Source of the DNA: Hydra vulgaris
Taxonomy: Eukaryota; Cnidaria; Hydrozoa; Anthoathecata; Hydridae
Length of the DNA stretch: 64,000 bases
Assembly (NCBI RefSeq): GCF_038396675.1
Contig: NC_088929.1
Location: forward strand, 33,958,501 to 34,022,500
Reading direction: 5' to 3'
The notes below the pieces were generated by a model. It searched no databases. It saw only the letters and a program-made list of their open reading frames with translations, and was not told the DNA's origin. Of the stretch, positions 17,113 through 55,458 are shown one piece after another (the first letter of the stretch is position 1; every line of letters starts with the position of its first letter). Both the position numbers and the translations under genes were made by a program.

Positions 17113-18918
17113 CTATGATGGGTTTACAGGGTACTGTAATGGCTGAAATGATGAAACTTGATTCCAGTAAGGATTTACAGGTGATTGAACTCCATCAGAA
17201 GGGTTTTGATATGCATTTGTTTGAAAAGGAGCTGTAGAACAACCCTGGAAATAATCAGGAGGAGGTGAACTGGTAGAATAAGATCTTGAAACAGGTTGTT
17301 CATTTTTGCACAAAGGTGTTCGTTCATTATTTAAAGAAATTGTCTTTGTATTCTTGCTTTTTTTTGGTATTGAAGAAACTACAGGATGTCTATTGAATGG
17401 AAGTTTTTTAGTTGTATAACATTGAACAAAAAATCCAATAATAAATAAACAAAACCAAATCACCACTAGAATTAACTCATTCTTTTGAAATGGAGGATTT
17501 AAGAAATTTATAGATATCTTATAGTCTATTAGCCGTAACATAACATTCTGAACAATAAAATGCAAACTCGATTGAAGAAAATAGTTTGCAAAAAGAATAA
17601 CAAGATAAGATCCAATAATAGAAGAACATAAATAACAACTGGTTTTTGGGAAAAAAAGCATAACTAAGGTAATAAAAGTAACAATGGAAGCAAATGCAAT
17701 ACAAAAGTTATTAGTTTGCACCCAAAGATCCATGCCACCAAACGGCGTATAAAACAAAATTGAAGTTACGATTAATGCCAAAATGATATTAACACATAAC
17801 AAGCTTATAAAAATACATTTTCTAAAGATATTTAAAAACAAAAAGAAGGCCCCACCTAATATTGACCATAATGATGAAATCACAAGTAAATCTTTGAAAT
17901 CTATTTTTCCTACAATATTTGCAATAAGAATAACACTAATAATCCAAAACAAAAGTGTTCCACAAGTAAATAGAAACAGATGAAAGTATTTAAACCCTGC
18001 AAAACATAGCACAACACCAAAAATTGCAAGAATGACCAATAAAACAAGTCCATAAGTTGATTTGTATATGCAAGCGCTAAAATCTGATAATGTAAGTTTA
18101 CAGCCATATGTGACAGCTGGAATATATGCTGAGAACAAGCCATGGCTTTGATCTGAGACTATAACATTAAATACAATACCATATCCAAAAACTGTTTGAA
18201 CATGTAAAGCTAACTTATGACCTCCAGTAATCTGTGTTAACCATGTGCCATGCTTTTTAATATCTAGAGGAGATGTCATTCTTGAAATAGCATTGTAAAG
18301 TCCTTCTTTTGTGTAATCTTTTGATTCTAAATATAAATAATAAACATCATAGGTCAAAGAATAACTGTCAGGAAAATCAGAATCGTCACACTTTGGAGGA
18401 TCTAAAGTATTCTCATAAGATTTGCTTGCTCTTTCAAAAACTAATAATGTTTGTATTGAATCATAACTGATATGAATATTTGGATCTATATTTAGTGCGC
18501 AAGTTAAGCAACATCCTCCTGGTATAGGTGACAGAACTTTATAAGCTATAGCTATTAGCCAAACTTCTACAAACTCACTTTTATTTGAATCAATACCAAT
18601 GTAAGTAGTCACCGAGGTATTGTCAACCATTTGAATAATACCTGAATCAGAAGCATTGTTTTCATAGCCATATTTTGAATAAGGTAAAAAAGAAGTTACT
18701 ACCTTTTCACAGAGTGTGTGAGCTTGAAAACTCATAAAACTATAATTTACTTTTGGGTGAATATGGGTATTTACTTTATGATAAGCTAATGGTGAAGATA
18801 ATAATACACGATAAGGAATGTTTAACTCAATTTGAATCCCATTTCTTTCAGAAACTAATTGGTTATCAACGTATTGGTTAATTATAACTTGTATTACAAA
18901 GAAAAAAAATAATAACAT
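17113..18918 (-). CDS. TM7SF3: TM7SF3 homologue, seven-transmembrane protein (single exon)
   Basis: A 601-codon frame starts at ATG 18918. It opens with a hydrophobic segment (LLFFFFVIQVII) that can act as a signal peptide. An extracellular region of about 275 residues follows, with family landmarks: PIPGGCCLTCALNIDPNI, DPPKCD, YDVYYLYL, and NVIVSD...SAYIPAVTYGCK. Residues of about 285-505 hold seven hydrophobic helices. The cytoplasmic tail is about 95 residues, rich in S/P/Q, with NERTPLCK and a YPVNPS end. Order, spacing and length match vertebrate TM7SF3 (about 570 residues), a multi-pass membrane protein linked to cell survival under stress. Here the whole frame is uninterrupted, with no intron. 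The start is chosen because it is the first ATG and precedes the signal-like core. Confidence 0.92.
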   Translation of the reverse strand: MLLFFFFVIQVIINQYVDNQLVSERNGIQIELNIPYRVLLSSPLAYHKVNTHIHPKVNYSFMSFQAHTLCEKVVTSFLPYSKYGYENNASDSGIIQMVDNTSVTTYIGIDSNKSEFVEVWLIAIAYKVLSPIPGGCCLTCALNIDPNIHISYDSIQTLLVFERASKSYENTLDPPKCDDSDFPDSYSLTYDVYYLYLESKDYTKEGLYNAISRMTSPLDIKKHGTWLTQITGGHKLALHVQTVFGYGIVFNVIVSDQSHGLFSAYIPAVTYGCKLTLSDFSACIYKSTYGLVLLVILAIFGVVLCFAGFKYFHLFLFTCGTLLFWIISVILIANIVGKIDFKDLLVISSLWSILGGAFFLFLNIFRKCIFISLLCVNIILALIVTSILFYTPFGGMDLWVQTNNFCIAFASIVTFITLVMLFFPKTSCYLCSSIIGSYLVILFANYFLQSSLHFIVQNVMLRLIDYKISINFLNPPFQKNELILVVIWFCLFIIGFFVQCYTTKKLPFNRHPVVSSIPKKSKNTKTISLNNERTPLCKNEQPVSRSYSTSSPPPDYFQGCSTAPFQTNAYQNPSDGVQSPVNPYWNQVSSFQPLQYPVNPS

Positions 18919-19849
18919 TCCAAAATTAGAACTCGTTGATGTATTGGACTAATATTGTATCTTTTGTTGCTGTTGTTGTTAATAAATTAAAGAGTTTTAC
19001 CAATAATTGTTTAAAACAGCTAAGATAGAAATCCGTTATCTGCAAAAACTACAAATACGTTACCAAAAAATGAGTCGGCTTAATTCTACGTTGTTAATAC
19101 ATACTGCGATAAAGATTTATATTGCTGACATTGATAGCAGAATATAACTGACAACTTGACAAAAACTCAAATTACATTTACTAAACACTTTTTTCAAACA
19201 AATATTCTTTTACTTGTTTGAATTTCAGTTAATTTTTCTCGGAAATGCTGCTTATCACAAAAAGTCAAGTGACTTCAATAAAACGTAAACAAGACCATGT
19301 CATTGTCAATCATGCATTCGCCCCACCTCTAATAATTTTTTTTTTTTTTAATGATATCATTATTTATCCGCATGAGAGGAAACATAAGTATTCCTCGACT
19401 ATTTATGTATACAAATAGGGATTTTATAAGTTTACTTGTCCATTTTTGTAGAAGAAGCATAGAAATAAAAATAGATCTATATTGAATTTTACAACCCATA
19501 TAAATGATTTAGCAATTAACTAAATACGTTCAATGTTAGTAGAAAATAAAAAAAAATAGAGGCCGGATGACTTTAAACAGCACACACTCGACAATAGAAA
19601 ATGCAAAAATTTGTGATTACATAACTTTCGGTAATTGCAATTTTATAACATTGCTATTTTACTTTTTTTTCTTTTTCTTTTTTTCCAATTAAACTGTGTT
19701 TTCACGGAAACGATTAAGAAGGCGGATCTAGGACGAAGAGAACCGGGATCTATCAGTTTCAAGAGACCACGATGTCTACTTTCAAAAGAAACTTCTCAAC
19801 TCACAAAAAAATGTTTAACGAAAACCTATCCAACAAATATTTATGTAGT
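18919..19849. other. Upstream region of TM7SF3
   Basis: This should contain the promoter of TM7SF3, but I see no distinctive element. A long frame reading through 19635-20054 begins with TTG, not ATG, and runs into a SINE. I do not consider it a gene. Confidence 0.5.
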
Positions 19850-35430: not shown

Positions 35431-38400
35431 TGGCGGAACTACTGGACGCAGGACCCTGCGTTGCGGGGGGGCCTACCAGCTATAGGGGGCCCTCATATAA
35501 AAAAAATTATACTCTCAATAATATTTATACTATAAAACTCTTTTCCGCAGGTATAGTGGGCCCTAAAATATAAAACTTGGATAAAAAAAATGTCATCCAT
35601 CGTATTAAAATATATTGTTCAAAAATTTATTTTTGTATTGGAGTGCGTAGTTTACATTTAAACGAAAAGTTTTAACCTTTTTAAAATTGCATACGCAATT
35701 GAGAAATAAAGTACGATTATCAGCTGCGAACTGCCAGATGTTATTGTATAGTTAATTTTTATACCGTTATGTTGTGTTTGTGTATGAATTAGACAATTAG
35801 ACTGAATTCGGTAAAAGTAATAATTTGTTGCGTATAAGTTTTTTTTAAACTGTAAGAAGTTCTTCAATTTATAAGTTCTTAGTTGCATATTCAATATTTT
35901 TAAAATATAAACAATATTATTTGTTATGTCGTTGCATATCAAGGATAATGATTCTATAATCCTTGTTGCAATATACAAATTAACTTTTAAATGTATGTCC
36001 TCATTTTCAATTTTATATTAAATCTTCCGTTGTATTAAGTTAACTTTTCATTTCTTATTTTATCTGAATTGCTAGTCTCCAATTTATTTAATCGTGTTAC
36101 GAATAATAAAGTATTGTTGCACGAGAGTTTATTACTTCACTGATATATTTAATAAAAGGTAATTAATAAATTTGTAATAATTAAAAATTTTACAACAGGT
36201 ACTGAATTTATAAATTTATAATAATTTAGATTTTGACTCATAATAATGGAAAAGAAATTAAGTAGTACAAGCGGTTCAGCAAAAAGAAGAAAGTTAAAAG
36301 AAACAAAAGCTACTTTAGCTAAATTGCCGAAGCTAACAACGTTTTTGAAACCAATCGAAAAGCGAGCGGAAACGGAAGTGGAAAGTCAAAACTCTGCAGA
36401 AGTGGTATGTATAAATCAGTCAGTAGAACATGATGATATCGAAGAAAACATTGCTACTGGTAATAAAAATGTGAACGAAGAAGATGTGAATAGGTCTCCG
36501 AGAAACCACCGAAATGAAGACAAGGAGGATTCAAACTCTGATACGAATGACGCCATTGAACAAATTAATTTAGAAAAATCAAGTGAATTATTTTCTACTG
36601 ACATTGCAAATTTTCATGGTAAAATACTAACAAAAGATATTAAGAAAATAATTGTATTATCGGAATCGTGTCGGCCAAAAGGTCCTTTTATACGCGACCC
36701 CTTGCAAGAAAACCGTAGGTTTTCCAAGGAATATTTTAAAACTACCACAAAATATGGATCTATAGAAAGAATGTGGCTTTGCTATTCCCCAAAACTTGAT
36801 GCCGTTTATTGCGAGCCTTGTTGGTTTTTCTCAGAAGAACGAAAAGCAAAGGATAACTGGCGTGAGCATGGTGTCAGAGATTGGCGTGGTCTTTCTAAAA
36901 AAATTAAAATTCACGAAAATAGTCAACAACATATATTTGCTTGTTGCATTTATGAAAAATGGCGACATAATGAAACAATTGATAAAAATATAGAAGAACA
37001 AATACGATACCAATCAAATTTTTGAGTGCAAGTCTTAGAGCGGATAGTAAATATAACATTAGCACTTTGTAAAAATTCTTTGGCTTTTCGTGGTCATCGT
37101 GAATCATTTGACAATGAATATAATGGTAATTTTTTAACTCAAGTTCAACTTTTAGCTAAATATGATAATGTTATGAAGCAAGTTTTGAGTATGCCAAATG
37201 GATCTATAAAATATTTAAGCCATCAAATTTAAAATGAAGTCATACATTGCCTTGCAACACATTTAAAAGCCACTCTTACTGCTGATATTAATAGTTCACC
37301 TTTTTATTCAATTATAATGGATACAACACAAGATATTACTAAAAGAGATCAGCTCAGTCAAGTATTTAGATACGTAAAAATTATTAAAAATGAAAAAGAT
37401 GAAGCCACATCAATTGAAATTAAAGAAGTTTTCTTGGGATTCACGGAAATATATAACCACACTGCTGCTGGACTACATGAAGAAATTTTAAATCTGTTAG
37501 AAAAACATCATATAAAATTAAGTAACTGCAGGGGTCAAGGTTAAGATGGTGCGAACGTCATGAGTGGGATATACAATGGGGTTCAGGCCCTTTTTAAGAA
37601 AAATCAACCCAATGCTATGTATATGCATTGCGCAGCTCATAATTTAAATCTTGTTATTAACGATGCGGTTAAATGTTGTGTTGAAGTTGCTTCATTTTTT
37701 GTAATGCTAGAAGATGTGTATTCATTTTTCGGAAATAGCATAAACAGGTAGGGTCTACTATCCGAATATACAGGAGAATCACAAATAACATTAAAAAGGT
37801 TAAATCCAACGCGATGGGCAGGACGATATACTTCTCTTTTCGCCGTTAAAATTCGCTTTCTTGATATAATGAAAGCTCTTTCCGAGATATCATAACAAGT
37901 ACAAAACGTGAAGAACGCGAAGAAGCAGTACGAATACAAAAAAATATGAGCAGTTTCGAATTTGTTTTTTTATGCGTGCTTTTGTCTAAAGTCCTTAATG
38001 AGGTACATATACCATCAAAATTGCTGCAAACTAAAAATTTAGATCTTACGACAGCTTCAGGTTCTCTAGAAAATGCCAGCAAAAATTTAAAACAATATAG
38101 AAAGATGTTTGATTCAGCAAAACTTGAAGCGGTAGAAATAGCGACTACGTGGCAGATTCCTGCAATATTTTTTCAAAAAAGAAGAAAAATTGTGAAAAGG
38201 CATTTTGACGAATTATCTACAGATCACCGTTTTGATAGTAGTAAGGAAATTTTTCGCATCAATATTTTTATAAAAATTTTGGACGTCGTTATCAACCAAC
38301 TCGACAATAGATTTAAGGAATGCAAGAAGTGGTACAATTATTTTCCTGCATCCATCCAAATAAATTAATGGTAATGAAAGATCGTGAGATCATAAGCTGT

Positions 38401-38974
38401 GCAGAAGCCATTCAGAGAAAATATAGTGAAGATATAACAACTGAATTTCCGCTGCAAATGGTTATGGTAAAGTCAATGCTACACGATAAAATATCAAAAT
38501 ATCATCTATACGTGAATTGGCTGACCTTTTAATAGTAAAATTGTCAACTATAGCTGCAAGCGTTCCACAAGTGATAACAACATTGTTATTGTTTCTTACA
38601 TTACCTGTTACTGTTGCATCAGCTGAACGTTCTTTTTCGAAACTTAAAATAATAAAAAATTATTTACGAAATACCATTGGTAAAGAACGTTTAAGCGACC
38701 TTGCAATAGTTTCTATTGAGGCAAAAGCGGCTGGAAAAATGGAAATGAAAAACATCATTACCGATTTTGCCAATATGAAATCAAGGAGGAAAGTTTTCAC
38801 TATTTAAGTTCGGTTAAGTTTTAGTTTCGTTTTGAAGCTATCTTTATCTTTATTTAATTTTTTGTTTTTAAATATGATATATGAAATAAATATCTATTTA
38901 ATATGTGAAGCTTTATTTTTTTTAAAAAAAACATTCTTTTGCGGGGGGGCCCAAATTTTGAAGTTCCGCCACTG
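35428..38974 (+). mobile_element. hAT transposon, ZMYM/TTF-finger type
   Basis: Perfect 13-bp terminal inverted repeats CAGTGGCGGAACT / AGTTCCGCCACTG, followed by G- and C-runs on both sides (GCGGGGGGGCC, GCGGGGGGGCCC). TA arrays adjoin both ends, so an 8-bp TATATATA target duplication is possible but cannot be proven. The plus strand carries a nearly full-length transposase (36246-38807). Confidence 0.92.
36246..38807 (+). pseudogene. hAT transposase with TTF-type zinc finger, lightly damaged
   Basis: The N-terminus (MEKKLSSTSGSAKRRKLKET) is charged and acidic to about residue 120. Next comes a TTF-type zinc finger: RPKGPFIRDPLQENRRF, ERMWLCYSPKLDAVYCEPCW, then KIKIHENSQQH. The catalytic region includes SIIMDTTQDI (first aspartate), GANVMSGIYNGVQALF and MHCAAHNLNLVINDA. 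The C-terminus carries the dimerisation block TLPVTVASAERSFSKLKIIK and KERLSDLAIVSIEA. Stops at 37023, 37229, 37542 and 37749, plus shifts near 37890 and 38365, break it. The layout is that of ZMYM1-like/DUF4371 hAT proteins of about 800 residues. With so few lesions it is probably a fairly recent arrival. Confidence 0.88.
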
Positions 38975-41990: not shown

Positions 41991-42286
41991 ATGTACAGTA
42001 TTGGACAAAACATTTGCAACCAACATCGAACAATGCTAAAAAGTGTTCCTAATTTTACATGTCTTAAAAACGAAACGAACTATACTACCACAGCAAACAG
42101 TTCAGGAGTCTGGAGTCATAGCATGCCATGACATGAGCAATCAGCTGACAGGTGACAGCACACAGGCAGAATTTCGTTGACAAGTGCCATTTTGCAGCGG
42201 ACAAAACAAGTGCAACTTTTTTGGTTTGTTTCATTTTCTTAAGTCTGGTCCGTGTCAACGTCACGGAAGTTTTTTAATAATTAAAG

Positions 42287-42455
42287 GAAGTATCCAGAAG
42301 TTTCCAGAAGCATGCAGAAGCTTCCAGAAGTTTCCAGAAGAAGCATCTGGAAGCATCCAGTAGCATCCAGAAATATCCAGAAACATTCAGAAGCATCCAG
42401 ACGCATCCAGAAGCTTCCAGAAGCATCGAAAAGAGGCATCTAGAATCTTCCAGAA
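42287..42455 (+). promoter_or_regulatory. Heat-shock-element array (GAAnnTTC units, 10-bp period)
   Basis: GAA recurs every 10 bases (42287, 297, 307, 317, 327, 337; then 350, 370, 380, 390, 410, 420), with consensus GAAGCWTCCA. Several intervals carry the inverted TTC at the correct spacing. The run 42317-42339 is GAA-gc-TTC-ca-GAA-gt-TTC-ca-GAA, five consecutive perfect heat-shock-factor pentamers. Three-unit sites GAA-nn-TTC-nn-GAA occur at 42297-42309, 42410-42422 and 42443-42455. This matches the known HSF consensus nGAAnnTTCnnGAAn. The last site is about 25 bases upstream of the TATA box. Function is inferred from motif and position. Confidence 0.75.
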
Positions 42456-42479
42456 CAGGTTCACACAGGTTCATTTTAC

Positions 42480-42516
42480 TATATAAGAGACATGTAAATT
42501 GACATATAATTCAGTC
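42480..42516 (+). promoter_or_regulatory. TATA box and initiator of the Tc1 transposase
   Basis: TATATAAG (42480-42487) is followed, at the canonical distance, by TTCAGTC (42510-42516), an arthropod-like initiator (TCAGT) with A at 42513, about 31 bases after TATAAG. An untranslated leader of about 240 bases then precedes ATG 42754. Confidence 0.7.
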
Positions 42517-42753
42517 AGTATATGGAAGTCAATCAGTCTGTATTATCAAGACAGTTTATCGAAGTGAGTTTTATTAAAGTGTTTTATCGAAGAACATCAA
42601 TACAAGAAGTGAAATACAACAAGTGTTTCATTACATCAATACAGTCTACATCTAACCAAGACGTTGTGTTCCACAGAGCATTATTGTATCATCACAAGGT
42701 AAATGTAACACGGTAAGCCTTGAGAAGCGTGATTAGTTATTTTTATTATTTTT

Positions 42754-43557
42754 ATGACTTCAAGTGCAAAAATGGCTCCCGACAGTCTTGGATTGGAACT
42801 AAGAAAGAAAATTATTGGCGATTACGTAAGTGGAATGTCACAAAAAAGTATTTGTGATAAATATCGCGTGAAAAAATGGACCGTATTAAGACTATGTTCC
42901 AAATATCGTTCTACGGGGAAGTTGGCACCTGATAACAAAGGTGGAAAACCGCGTTCCACCACTTCTAGAGAGGATTCTTTGATCGTCAGATCTGTCAAGA
43001 AGGATCCCTGGATATCATCAGTCGAGATACAAAAGTGTACGTCGACTGGCCAAAAACGCCTCAATTTACGTTACTACCATAAGACCATGAAGCATGGTGG
43101 AGGCAATGTAATGGTCTGGGGTTGTTTTTCTGTTAACGGTCTAGGTCCAATACATCGAAACGATAGAATGATGGACCGTTTCATGTATTAAAATATCCTG
43201 AAAGATGTTATGTTACCTCATGCTGAATGGAATATGCCAATAAAATGGGTTTTTCAGCAAGACAACGATCCAAAACACACTGCAAAAGTAGTCAAGCAGT
43301 GGTTTCAAGACAACCACCTATCGGTGATGGATTGGCCTCCTCAATCTCCGGATCTCAACTCTATTGAGAATCTGTGGGAGATCGTCAACCGCAGAATTAA
43401 TTGTGAAGGTGTTCGTAATAAGGATCAACTGTTTGAACAAATCCAAATGGCCTGGGCAGCGATTCCACAAAGTTTCATTGATCACCTGATCAAATCTATG
43501 CCTCCAAAATGCAATGCTGTGATCGGCAACAAAGGATTCGCTACGAAATATTAATAG
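42754..43557 (+). pseudogene. Tc1-family transposase, in-frame deletion
   Basis: From ATG 42754 the frame is continuous to the stop after GNKGFATKY, with a single TAA (43189). Residues 10-60 form the paired-like helix-turn-helix region (GMSQKSICDKYRVKKWTVLR), then the GRPR-like linker as GGKPRSTTSRED. After SVEIQK the sequence jumps to KTMKHGGGNVMVWGCFSVNG, so the second HTH and the first catalytic aspartate are lost. The second aspartate (FQQDNDPKHTAKVV) and the final glutamate (WPPQSPDLNSIENLW) remain. Relatives are about 340 residues; this one is 267. It could at most bind DNA. Confidence 0.93.
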
Positions 43558-43825
43558 CGAAATACAGCTTGGTCAACATTTTGTCGAGTTGCACTTGTTT
43601 TGTCCAGAAGGAAATCAACTTTTTTTAATACTTTTGATTAATTTATTAATTTTCGTGTACAAATAATGAACTTTGTGATGAATAAAACTTGAAGAACTTT
43701 GTCTCTAAACAGTTACGTAGTTATTTCTCTAAATTGAAAAAATGCAGCACTTTTATATAAAGAAACTAAATTAGCATTATTTGGTTGCACTCGTTTTGTC
43801 CAATACTGTATATTTAATTTATTTC

Positions 43826-44170
<345 letters not shown>

Positions 44171-44609
44171 ACAACAGCCAGTGATAATTGATTGAACTTT
44201 TTATTATAAACAAATAACTTAGTTGTAACAGTGTGATTACAATTTAGAACATCTTAAAACTTAATAAAAAAAGAAAATGCTCTTTTCTATTGTGCGCCTT
44301 ACAATGATGTAATAGTATAACTAGATGCGTGACTTGCAGCTTTTTGCGTATAACTAAGTGAACCCATCGTCCGCCATTTTGCGGTACGGCAAAAACATAA
44401 GACGCGACTATAAAAGCATAGAGAACTATTTATCTAAATAATTAGTCATAAAATTTAATTAAGAATCTGTAGAGAATTAATTTTTACTTTATTTTTATTT
44501 TTCTACAATTGAAAAATGTGTGATGATGTGTGAATAAGTCACACATTATGACACAGATTCATAAGCAAATTGCTAACTCTGAGTTATCAAGCACATAGCT
44601 ACAATTATA
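44171..44609. other. Non-coding interval next to the P-like element
   Basis: No gene. Small hairpins are CCGCCATTTTGCGG (44371) and TGTGTGAATAAGTCACACA (44530). The 3' terminus of the P-like element may lie here but could not be identified. Confidence 0.4.
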
Positions 44610-52673: not shown

Positions 52674-55458
52674 AATTTAGATGACATTGAATAGGTCAGT
52701 AATATAGTTGAATTAATGCGTGTCTATTTACAAAACTTCTCGCTTTATATAATACTCCAATATTTTTTGAAACTTTGTTGCGCAAGGTTTCAATATGATT
52801 TTTCCACGTAAGGTTTTCATCAATAAGAACACCAAGAAAAAGTATAACTTTTGATTGTTTTATTTGAATATTATCAATATATATTTGAGGCATATCATTT
52901 GGCAAAAGATATTTTTTGGAATGTGGATGTAATAGAATCCATTTAGTTTTTTCTATGTTAGTTGATAACTTATTTGACTTAAACCATTTTGAAATTTTAA
53001 TTAGCTCTATGTTCATGTATTTAAATAGTGTTATGATATTATTGCTAGACATAAAAAGTTTGTGTCATCAGCAAACATTACTGTTTTTAAATTTGAGGCA
53101 TTATAAAGATCATTAATATAAATGAGAAAAAGAAGTGGTCCTAGTATAGACCCTTGGGGAACACCACATATTATATCTAGTAAATTTGTTGTAGAGGATA
53201 CATCAATTTGCATATACTGTTTACGATCGCTTAAATAGCTCTTAAGTAGTTTTAGAAAATACCGCAGATTCCATAATTTTCTAGTTTTTTAATAAGAATC
53301 TCATGATTTATCGTATCGAAGGCCTTTTGATAGATCTATGAACACTGCAAGAGTAAATTGTAATTTTTCAAACGAATCTGCAATATTTCTAGTCAAATGA
53401 AGCACTGCGTGTTCAGTAGAATTATGTTTTTTAAATCTGTATTGGGTTGTATTTAGTATTTTATTTTTAGAATAATGATCATAAATTTTATTGTAAAGGA
53501 TCCTTTCAAAAATCTTTGAAAAACCAGAAAGTACAGAAATTGGACGATAATTAGTTATATTTGATAATTCCCCTCCTTTAAATATTGGTGTAACTTTGGC
53601 TATCTTTTGTTGATCAGGAAATATACATTGTTTAATTGAACAACTAAAGACCTGAAAGAGTATAGTTTTTATGATCTCGTAAAACCTGATTATAATGTTA
53701 CCATTTATTTGATCTGGGCCTATCGCTTTATTGATTTTTAGCATTTTGTGAGCACATTCAAACTCTTTAATCGAAAGTTCAAAGTTATTAAGTATAGAAA
53801 TTATCGGAAGACTAAAATCATTAATTGTGTTAGTTATAATTGGAATATTTTTTGCTAAATTTAGACCAATAGTTACAAAAAAGTTATTTATTTGATTTGC
53901 TATATCTTTAGGATTATATAAAAAATCATTATTTTTTTTAAGTTGCATGTTTTAATTTTTTGATTGCCAGTAATTTCATTTAAAATTTGCCATGTGCGTT
54001 TAGCATTATTCTTAAACTTCTCTAATAAGTTTGAATAGTATTTTTTTTTTTAAGTTTTTTTTTTTGACTTTCAAAAAGCTTTACATAACTTTTATAAATT
54101 TCCTTATTTTTATCTGTTTTTGACTTTAAATACTTTATATTCAATTTTTGTTTAACTTTGGAAGATTTCCTGAGGTCTTTGGTAATCGATGGTGCCTTTA
54201 AGCTATTTTTGTTAAAGTTTTCATTTTTTATTGTGGAAAATTTGCATCATAAACTTCATAGAATGTTCTAAAGAATGAGTTATAAACCACATTTGCTTCC
54301 GACGAAAAATTTTTATGTTTCCAATGTAGTAATGATAGTTGTTCATTAAATGATGCAATTTTCTTCACTGAAACAGCGTTTTAGGATAACTTGTTTTTTT
54401 ATTTGTAATTGTTCAATATCAGTAATTATTGAAAAGAAGATAGGAAAATGATCTGAAACATCATTTTTAATTAACCCTTTTTTAAGAGATTCATTAAAAG
54501 TGTCTGTTGTCATTAAGGATATCTATTAAGATATTAAGGATATCATATCTATTAAGGATACTGACATTAAAGCTACTCTTGTTGGTTTATTAATAAGCGG
54601 AATTGCACCGTTTTCAAATAAATCATTATAAAAAACTATTAATTTTGGAATTTACGTGATATTTTAATGCGTCTAAATTTATGTCACCAATTATGTAATT
54701 TAATTTCTTTTCTATTGTACATTTTGTTATAATATCAGTAGTTAAAATGGGCTTGAAACTATTTATTTCACCAGATGGTAGGCGATAACAGCAACTTAAA
54801 AGTATATTTTTAGTTTTTTTGGCTAAAATTTCAATTGTCAAAACCTCTTTATCGGCATCAGAAATACTCATGTCAGGCCTATTTATTAACCGCATTTCTT
54901 CACTTACATAAAAAAGTACTCCACCGCCTCGTTTTTTTGTTTTACGTGCTAAAGAAACAGGATTAAAACCTGACAGGTGAAGATTCGAGTTAGATATAGC
55001 CTCGTCAGAACTACACTAAGTTTCTGTTAGGCATATAACGTTAAAAATATTTAAAGTTTCCTCAATATTATTCTTAAAATTTTCAAAATTCTTTTTTAAA
55101 CTTCTTATGTTAAAATGTATCACATTTAAGCGATCTCGCTCAAGAAATTCTTTTAGTTCATTGTTATAAAAATAAAAAGAATTGTTTAACAAAGCACCTG
55201 CTTTACTAAAATAAATTGAATCAGTTTCATCGTTTATTGTTTGAAAAAAGTCAAAAGATTTAAACTCAAAATTATTTGCATGTTTTGAGTCAGTTTTTTA
55301 GTTTTTAAATATAGAAATAAAAGAATTTCGGACAGAATTTAAGCTTAACATAAATGTAAATGTTACATTCATTTAAAAATATCAAGTTAATAATTTGAAG
55401 AATGAAAAAATTAAAAATATCCCATAAAATATCAAGTATCTAAAAAAAAAAAATTAAT

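Follow-up and report, generated by a model that had tools for sequence, protein, structure and literature searches.

HSF binds alternating nGAAn units as trimers, and animal hsp70 promoters in general carry a cluster of such heat-shock elements (HSEs), a TATA box and an initiator (Inr), in that order. Transposons that bear HSEs are already known. In Caenorhabditis many HSEs are provided by Helitrons, which heat induces through HSF-1 (PMC6927752; PMC6765114; PMC8896005), and the LTR of ONSEN in Arabidopsis has an HSE-like element that binds HSFA2 (PMC3907296). The Tc1-like transposons of salmonids show transcript levels that rise with stress and toxicity, and stress-responsive promoters have been called plausible for them; the available part of that account mentions no HSE, and the genes whose expression correlated were those of defence and signalling (PMC1192797). 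A search of the open-access literature returned, among the matches listed, no Tc1/mariner element with HSEs and no case of a Hydra transposon linked to heat shock. The locus described here, in Hydra vulgaris, is a Tc1 element in which the whole layout of such a promoter is present.

Each of these systems shares part of the Hydra arrangement. Helitron1_CE is likewise a DNA transposon whose repeated, tandem-like HSEs supply many of the HSEs of its genome, but it is a rolling-circle element of another superfamily and host, and its HSF-1 binding and heat induction have been measured, whereas the Hydra case is read from sequence (PMC6927752; PMC6765114). In ONSEN an nTTCnnGAAn motif within a transposon promoter couples the element to the host heat response, but ONSEN is a retrotransposon served by plant HSFs and has 8 copies in the reference genome (PMC3907296), while the Hydra element is a DNA transposon whose tandem array has about 14 units. 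The heat-mobilised elements TCN3 and TCN12 of Cryptococcus also have putative HSEs in the LTR, although these are LTR elements and the putative HSEs number two in TCN3 and one in TCN12 (PMC12810828).

The Hydra element lies in a window of 64,000 nucleotides, by which we mean the whole stretch of DNA analysed and to which the coordinates below refer. Its ends are arranged as follows:

41994..43810, plus strand: Tc1-like element with terminal inverted repeats, flanking TA included at both sides
41994..42021, plus strand: left outer inverted repeat with TA, starting TACAGTATTGG
42199..42216, plus strand: left inner direct repeat of an IR/DR layout, 89% to the outer copy (D4)
43588..43606, minus strand: right inner direct repeat (D3)
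43783..43810, minus strand: right outer inverted repeat with TA, matching the TACAGTATTGG end

The termini read TA-CAGTATTGG at 41994 and CCAATACTG-TA at 43810; the terminal inverted repeats have 0 and 3 mismatches relative to the end sequence used as query, and other copies of the family are delimited by the same ends. The presence of an inner second repeat in each end places the element in the IR/DR subgroup of Tc1. TA stands at both sides in 21 of the 27 copies having both ends, the other 11 of 38 copies being without one end inside the fetched stretch. Microsatellites of TA occur at 43831-43945 and 44094-44171 of the window, and also in the flanks of copies L010-L046; many Tc1 copies sit inside such repeats, which may be favoured as insertion sites or may tolerate insertions better.

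The transposase gene of the window copy is broken into two parts:

42757..43191, plus strand: transposase N-terminal part (HTH, paired-like), terminating at an in-frame stop (43189-43191)
43034..43036, plus strand: junction where about 223 bp found in copy L012 have been deleted, among them the stretch with the first catalytic Asp
43192..43554, plus strand: transposase C-terminal part, DDE_3, with the second Asp and the Glu

In the 120-residue C-terminal part, the invariant D24 and E59 leave 34 residues between the second Asp and the Glu. Pfam recognised DDE_3 above its cut-off and PAX at its cut-off in the window copy, with no Tc3_2; in L012 and L020, two copies whose frames stay open for 326 and 332 codons, Tc3_2 (HTH) and DDE_3 were both above their cut-offs. 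These two also have the first catalytic Asp (SDESKF), which is absent from the window copy, and the sole PDB match of the L020 transposase was Sleeping Beauty. By its catalytic spacing, its domains and its TA-flanked terminal inverted repeats, the element belongs to the Tc1 (DD34E) transposons. With its internal deletion of about 223 bp and its in-frame stop, the copy in the window is dead, unable to give a whole transposase, but it has retained its promoter. Splicing of the 5' leader is conceivable, as a splice-donor-like AAG|GTAAAT is present within 42696-42756, downstream of the predicted start and ahead of the transposase ATG.

The features of the candidate promoter follow the left IR/DR end and precede the transposase start, all on the plus strand, the perfect HSEs being defined as alternating GAA/TTC at 5-bp spacing:

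42287..42427, plus strand: tandem array of 13.8 units with period 10 and consensus GAAGCATCCA, as called by Tandem Repeats Finder
42297..42309, plus strand: perfect 3-unit HSE
42317..42339, plus strand: perfect 5-unit HSE
42410..42422, plus strand: perfect 3-unit HSE
42443..42455, plus strand: perfect 3-unit HSE, closest to the TATA box
42480..42487, plus strand: TATATAAG box, 24 bases past the last HSE
42510..42516, plus strand: initiator TTCAGTC, predicted start A at 42513

An earlier, sequence-only reading of this DNA had described five perfect alternating pentamers at 42317-42339 and three further three-unit sites, and all four are present as described. Its account of the periodicity held in part: GAA does recur at 10-bp steps from 42287, but with a 3-bp break of register from 42337 to 42340, a second break after 42428, and some steps skipped. 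The same is true of the proposed pairing of GAA with TTC at HSF spacing, since the second half-site of the ten-base units is a perfect TTC in 5/15 but ATC in 8/15, as in the consensus, which contains GAA...ATC. The fourth HSE (42443-42455) is separate from the array and out of register with it. Elsewhere in the 64-kb window, whose G+C content is 27.9%, there are just two more runs of three units. Windows simulated with a first-order Markov model (100 trials) contained a mean of 0.82 runs of at least three units and no run of five, and sequences simulated from the composition of the promoter region itself contained a mean of 0.009 runs, with four runs or a five-unit run in none of 2000. Chance does not account for the cluster, and perfect HSEs are far above expectation.

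The same reading had placed a TATA box about 25 bp past the last HSE and a TCAGTC initiator about 31 bp after TATAAG. The first distance is 24 bases, and the predicted start A at 42513 stands 31 bases downstream of the T that opens TATAAG. When both strands of the window were searched for TATAWAAR and TCAGTY separated by 28-34 bases, this was the sole pair, against a background of 122 TATA-like and 68 Inr-like sites. A second TCAGTC occurs downstream of the promoter Inr within the analysed stretch. The window copy therefore shows two sequence marks of a heat-shock promoter, namely three or more alternating nGAAn units and, downstream of them, a TATA box and initiator at promoter spacing. Relative to animal hsp70 promoters in general (not Hydra's own), the order of elements is the same and the spacing is similar, but the promoter of the Hydra element would drive a transposase, and its array is longer and more regular.

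These observations are probably best explained by an HSF-driven transposase promoter belonging to a high-copy Tc1 (DD34E) family that was scattered by a transposon burst. Trimers of the host HSF would occupy the GAA/TTC array, which lies some 58 to 226 bases ahead of the start, several of them loading on heat, while the TATA box and Inr would position polymerase at 42513. Transposase would then be made mainly when HSF is active, under heat or other protein damage. The burst of the family would have spread copies of the array through the genome, and the gain or loss of whole 10-bp units would maintain the spacing register of the HSEs.

The host genome searched comprises 911.5 Mb in 15 contigs. 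A search by DNA similarity gave at least 93 matched pieces, and 40 of 1933 first-look candidates were scored; 39 places were fetched, 38 of them with a promoter region, the upstream sequence of L047 reading N. A perfect run of at least three units is present in 38/38 other copies with a readable promoter (39/39 counting the window), and a run of at least five in 34/39 aligned copies, the window counted. As the DNA query itself contained the array, only a second set, fetched with a related transposase protein as query, is free of that bias. Among the best 30 of 120 places listed in this set, runs of at least three units occur in 30/30 and of at least five in 16/30; these 30 include one place already in the first set (L075, the same as L016), a pair of twins (L048 and L049), and two copies (L070 and L077) in which part of the promoter region is lost or replaced. 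The match is without a stop codon in 11 of the 30 (two of them twins), and all 11 keep HSE runs. The loss of GAA/TTC spacing in other copies, which the sequence-only reading had named as the outcome that would count against it, is not seen in the copies examined, every one of which keeps a perfect run.

The core promoter is less uniformly retained. The exact TATATAAG is found in 28/39 aligned copies (window counted) and is missing from 11/39; together with TTCAGTCAGT it is found in 25/39, with identical spacing in all 25. In the protein-fetched set, both the exact TATATAAG and the Inr are found in 22/30. The hsp70-like layout inside a Tc1-like element, as first described from the window, is thus common to the family and not a local accident. 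The sequence-only reading as a whole is partly supported: it had the layout right, the reach of the finding is wider than it foresaw, and the function is a prediction.

The length of the array varies among copies. In 37 copies the array stretch measures 172 bases in 26, 182 in 9, and 171 and 168 in one each. In the protein-fetched set, the difference from the 240 bases of the window's stretch is a multiple of 10 (zero included) in 18/30, L077 among them, and is not in 12/30. The array therefore often, though not always, gains or loses whole 10-bp units, whereby the half-sites stay in register. The tree of copies is star-like, as expected after a burst. Several pairs of copies have identical scores and opposite orientation: L048 and L049 on contig 8 (34466684 and 34455466), and further pairs on contig 15 (37215476, 37227769), contig 12 (81187189, 81196559) and contig 6 (6689169, 6691605). 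Being 2 to 12 kb apart, they suggest inverted duplications or an assembly effect. Beyond the host genome, viral_contigs yielded no copies to searches with the protein, the end sequence, the array pattern or by alignment; genome_contigs yielded none with the array pattern or the protein, and phages and plasmids none by blastn. The protein database does contain relatives of the transposase, as protein-only entries.

Conservation was measured as the number of alignment cells differing from the majority letter, by region, in a set of 37 rows (L014 and L015 dropped as near-identical to L013) and in a set of 63 rows, from which four more were removed: L049, being a twin of L048; L070 and L077, whose 5' region is broken; and L075. 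In the 37 rows, 75/3551 cells differ in the array cores and 64/2697 in the array spacers (p=0.49), compared with 153/8834 in the 5'UTR (core vs 5'UTR, p=0.16), 43/1368 from TATA to Inr, 341/8189 in the left end, 56/2510 in the flank at 42217-42286 and 13/888 at 42456-42479. In the 63 rows, the counts are 139/5853 for cores and 133/4465 for spacers (p=0.063), 274/14992 for the 5'UTR, which is lower than the cores (p=0.013), 71/2327 from TATA to Inr, 140/4325 for the flank and 31/1499 for 42456-42479. Sites with a minor letter in at least five copies (4 in the cores, 3 in the array spacers, 4 in the left flank, 2 between TATA and Inr and 3 in the 5'UTR) are too few to use. The expectation that the GAA/TTC array would be kept more strictly than its neighbours thus failed: in neither set are the HSE cores measurably better conserved, nor is the TATA-to-Inr stretch, which is one of the more variable parts. 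With neither of them protected, the promoter does not pass a test of conservation. That test says little about active copies, because almost all copies would be passengers after insertion. Neutral decay is what one expects of dead copies, and decay of the cores therefore neither proves nor refutes use by the active ones. A star-like burst gives low power to detect selection on active copies.

The lack of extra conservation in the cores also fits an account in which the array is a 10-bp minisatellite, grown by slippage within a transposon, that resembles HSEs because its unit combines GAA with a near-TTC and that has no role in expression. Unit number that differs among copies, often in 10-bp steps, and a consensus half-site of ATC would also be expected of such a repeat. 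On the other hand, the array directly precedes the sole TATA and Inr pair of the window, the fourth HSE stands apart and out of the array register, and the perfect run is kept in every copy examined, including the 11 without stops. We regard this account as unlikely, though it deserves to be kept in mind. It is considerably harder to credit that another factor, an ETS or STAT-like binder of GGAA/TTCC, reads the array and confers a tissue- or immune-type expression in place of a heat response. The TTCCAGAA motifs are also close to such consensus sites, but TTC and GAA are separated by 2 bases, which is the HSE spacing, and STAT sites have a spacer of 3. That the array is phased at 10 bp for the sake of DNA shape, to bend the DNA or to position nucleosomes close to the transposon end, and resembles HSEs incidentally, is very improbable, for although the GAA steps are near the helical repeat, phasing requires neither TTC at +5 nor a TATA box and Inr, and the fourth HSE is out of phase.

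A survey of perfect five-unit HSEs, as distinct from weaker three-unit sites, counted 2342 (1187+1155) in the 911.5 Mb, vs 22 (12+10) for the reversed pattern. The 100 matches listed of these 2342 are all in the first 39 Mb of contig 1; 85 were typed and 15 overlapping a typed row were left out, which gave 65 places. Classified by motif type and not by reading each place, 59 of the 65 differ from the transposon type by at most one base, 3 are at two bases and 3 are further away. Seven of the 65 are copies found independently by the DNA or protein search, and one of these seven (C1:25551961) belongs to the two-base group. Among this contig 1 sample, most of it classed by motif, no strong HSE is known as a single-copy host promoter.

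The three outlying places were considered as possible host hsp genes, and this was rejected, as all three sit in one other dispersed repeat, dissimilar to the Tc1 element, that has perfect HSE runs of 6 or 7 units and whose copies share 77-81% identity in alignments of 594 to 939 bases. Its copies, on contig 1 of the host genome, are:

L078:1210-1773, copy of the second repeat
L079:644-1243, copy of the second repeat
L080:430-1010, copy of the second repeat

An exact TATAAAAG box lies near the HSE run, on the minus strand, in two of the three. L078 and L079 contain short minus-strand ORF remnants, neither of which matched a Pfam family above cut-off.

The Tc1 family thus appears to supply many of the strong HSEs of its host, and most of those within the listed sample. 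More tentatively, nearly all strong HSEs of the genome may come from mobile or repeated DNA, that is, from this one Tc1 family and the second, unrelated repeat. There would then be roughly 1500 places with HSF-binding arrays, a figure extrapolated by scaling the 65 places formed by 100 listed matches to 2342, and these might suffice to bring neighbouring genes under heat control or to titrate HSF under stress. If HSF does drive the promoter, a very abundant DNA transposon would have coupled its mobility to heat stress and would be the source of many, perhaps the majority, of the strong heat-shock sites in the genome of an early-branching animal. Hydra species differ in their heat-shock response, to judge from the titles cited in one report (PMC2908143), so the copy number and placement of the family would offer a testable source of regulatory difference among them.

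Further open reading frames occur in the window outside the element:

17113-18948, minus strand: 611-codon open frame similar to TM7SF3-like membrane proteins
36237-38807, plus strand: ORF that by eye we take to be a broken hAT-type transposase
52696-53951, minus strand: ORF that, also by eye, is presumably a non-LTR reverse transcriptase

The best-ranked named relative of the TM7SF3-like frame is a protein of the hydrozoan Clytia with 37% identity.
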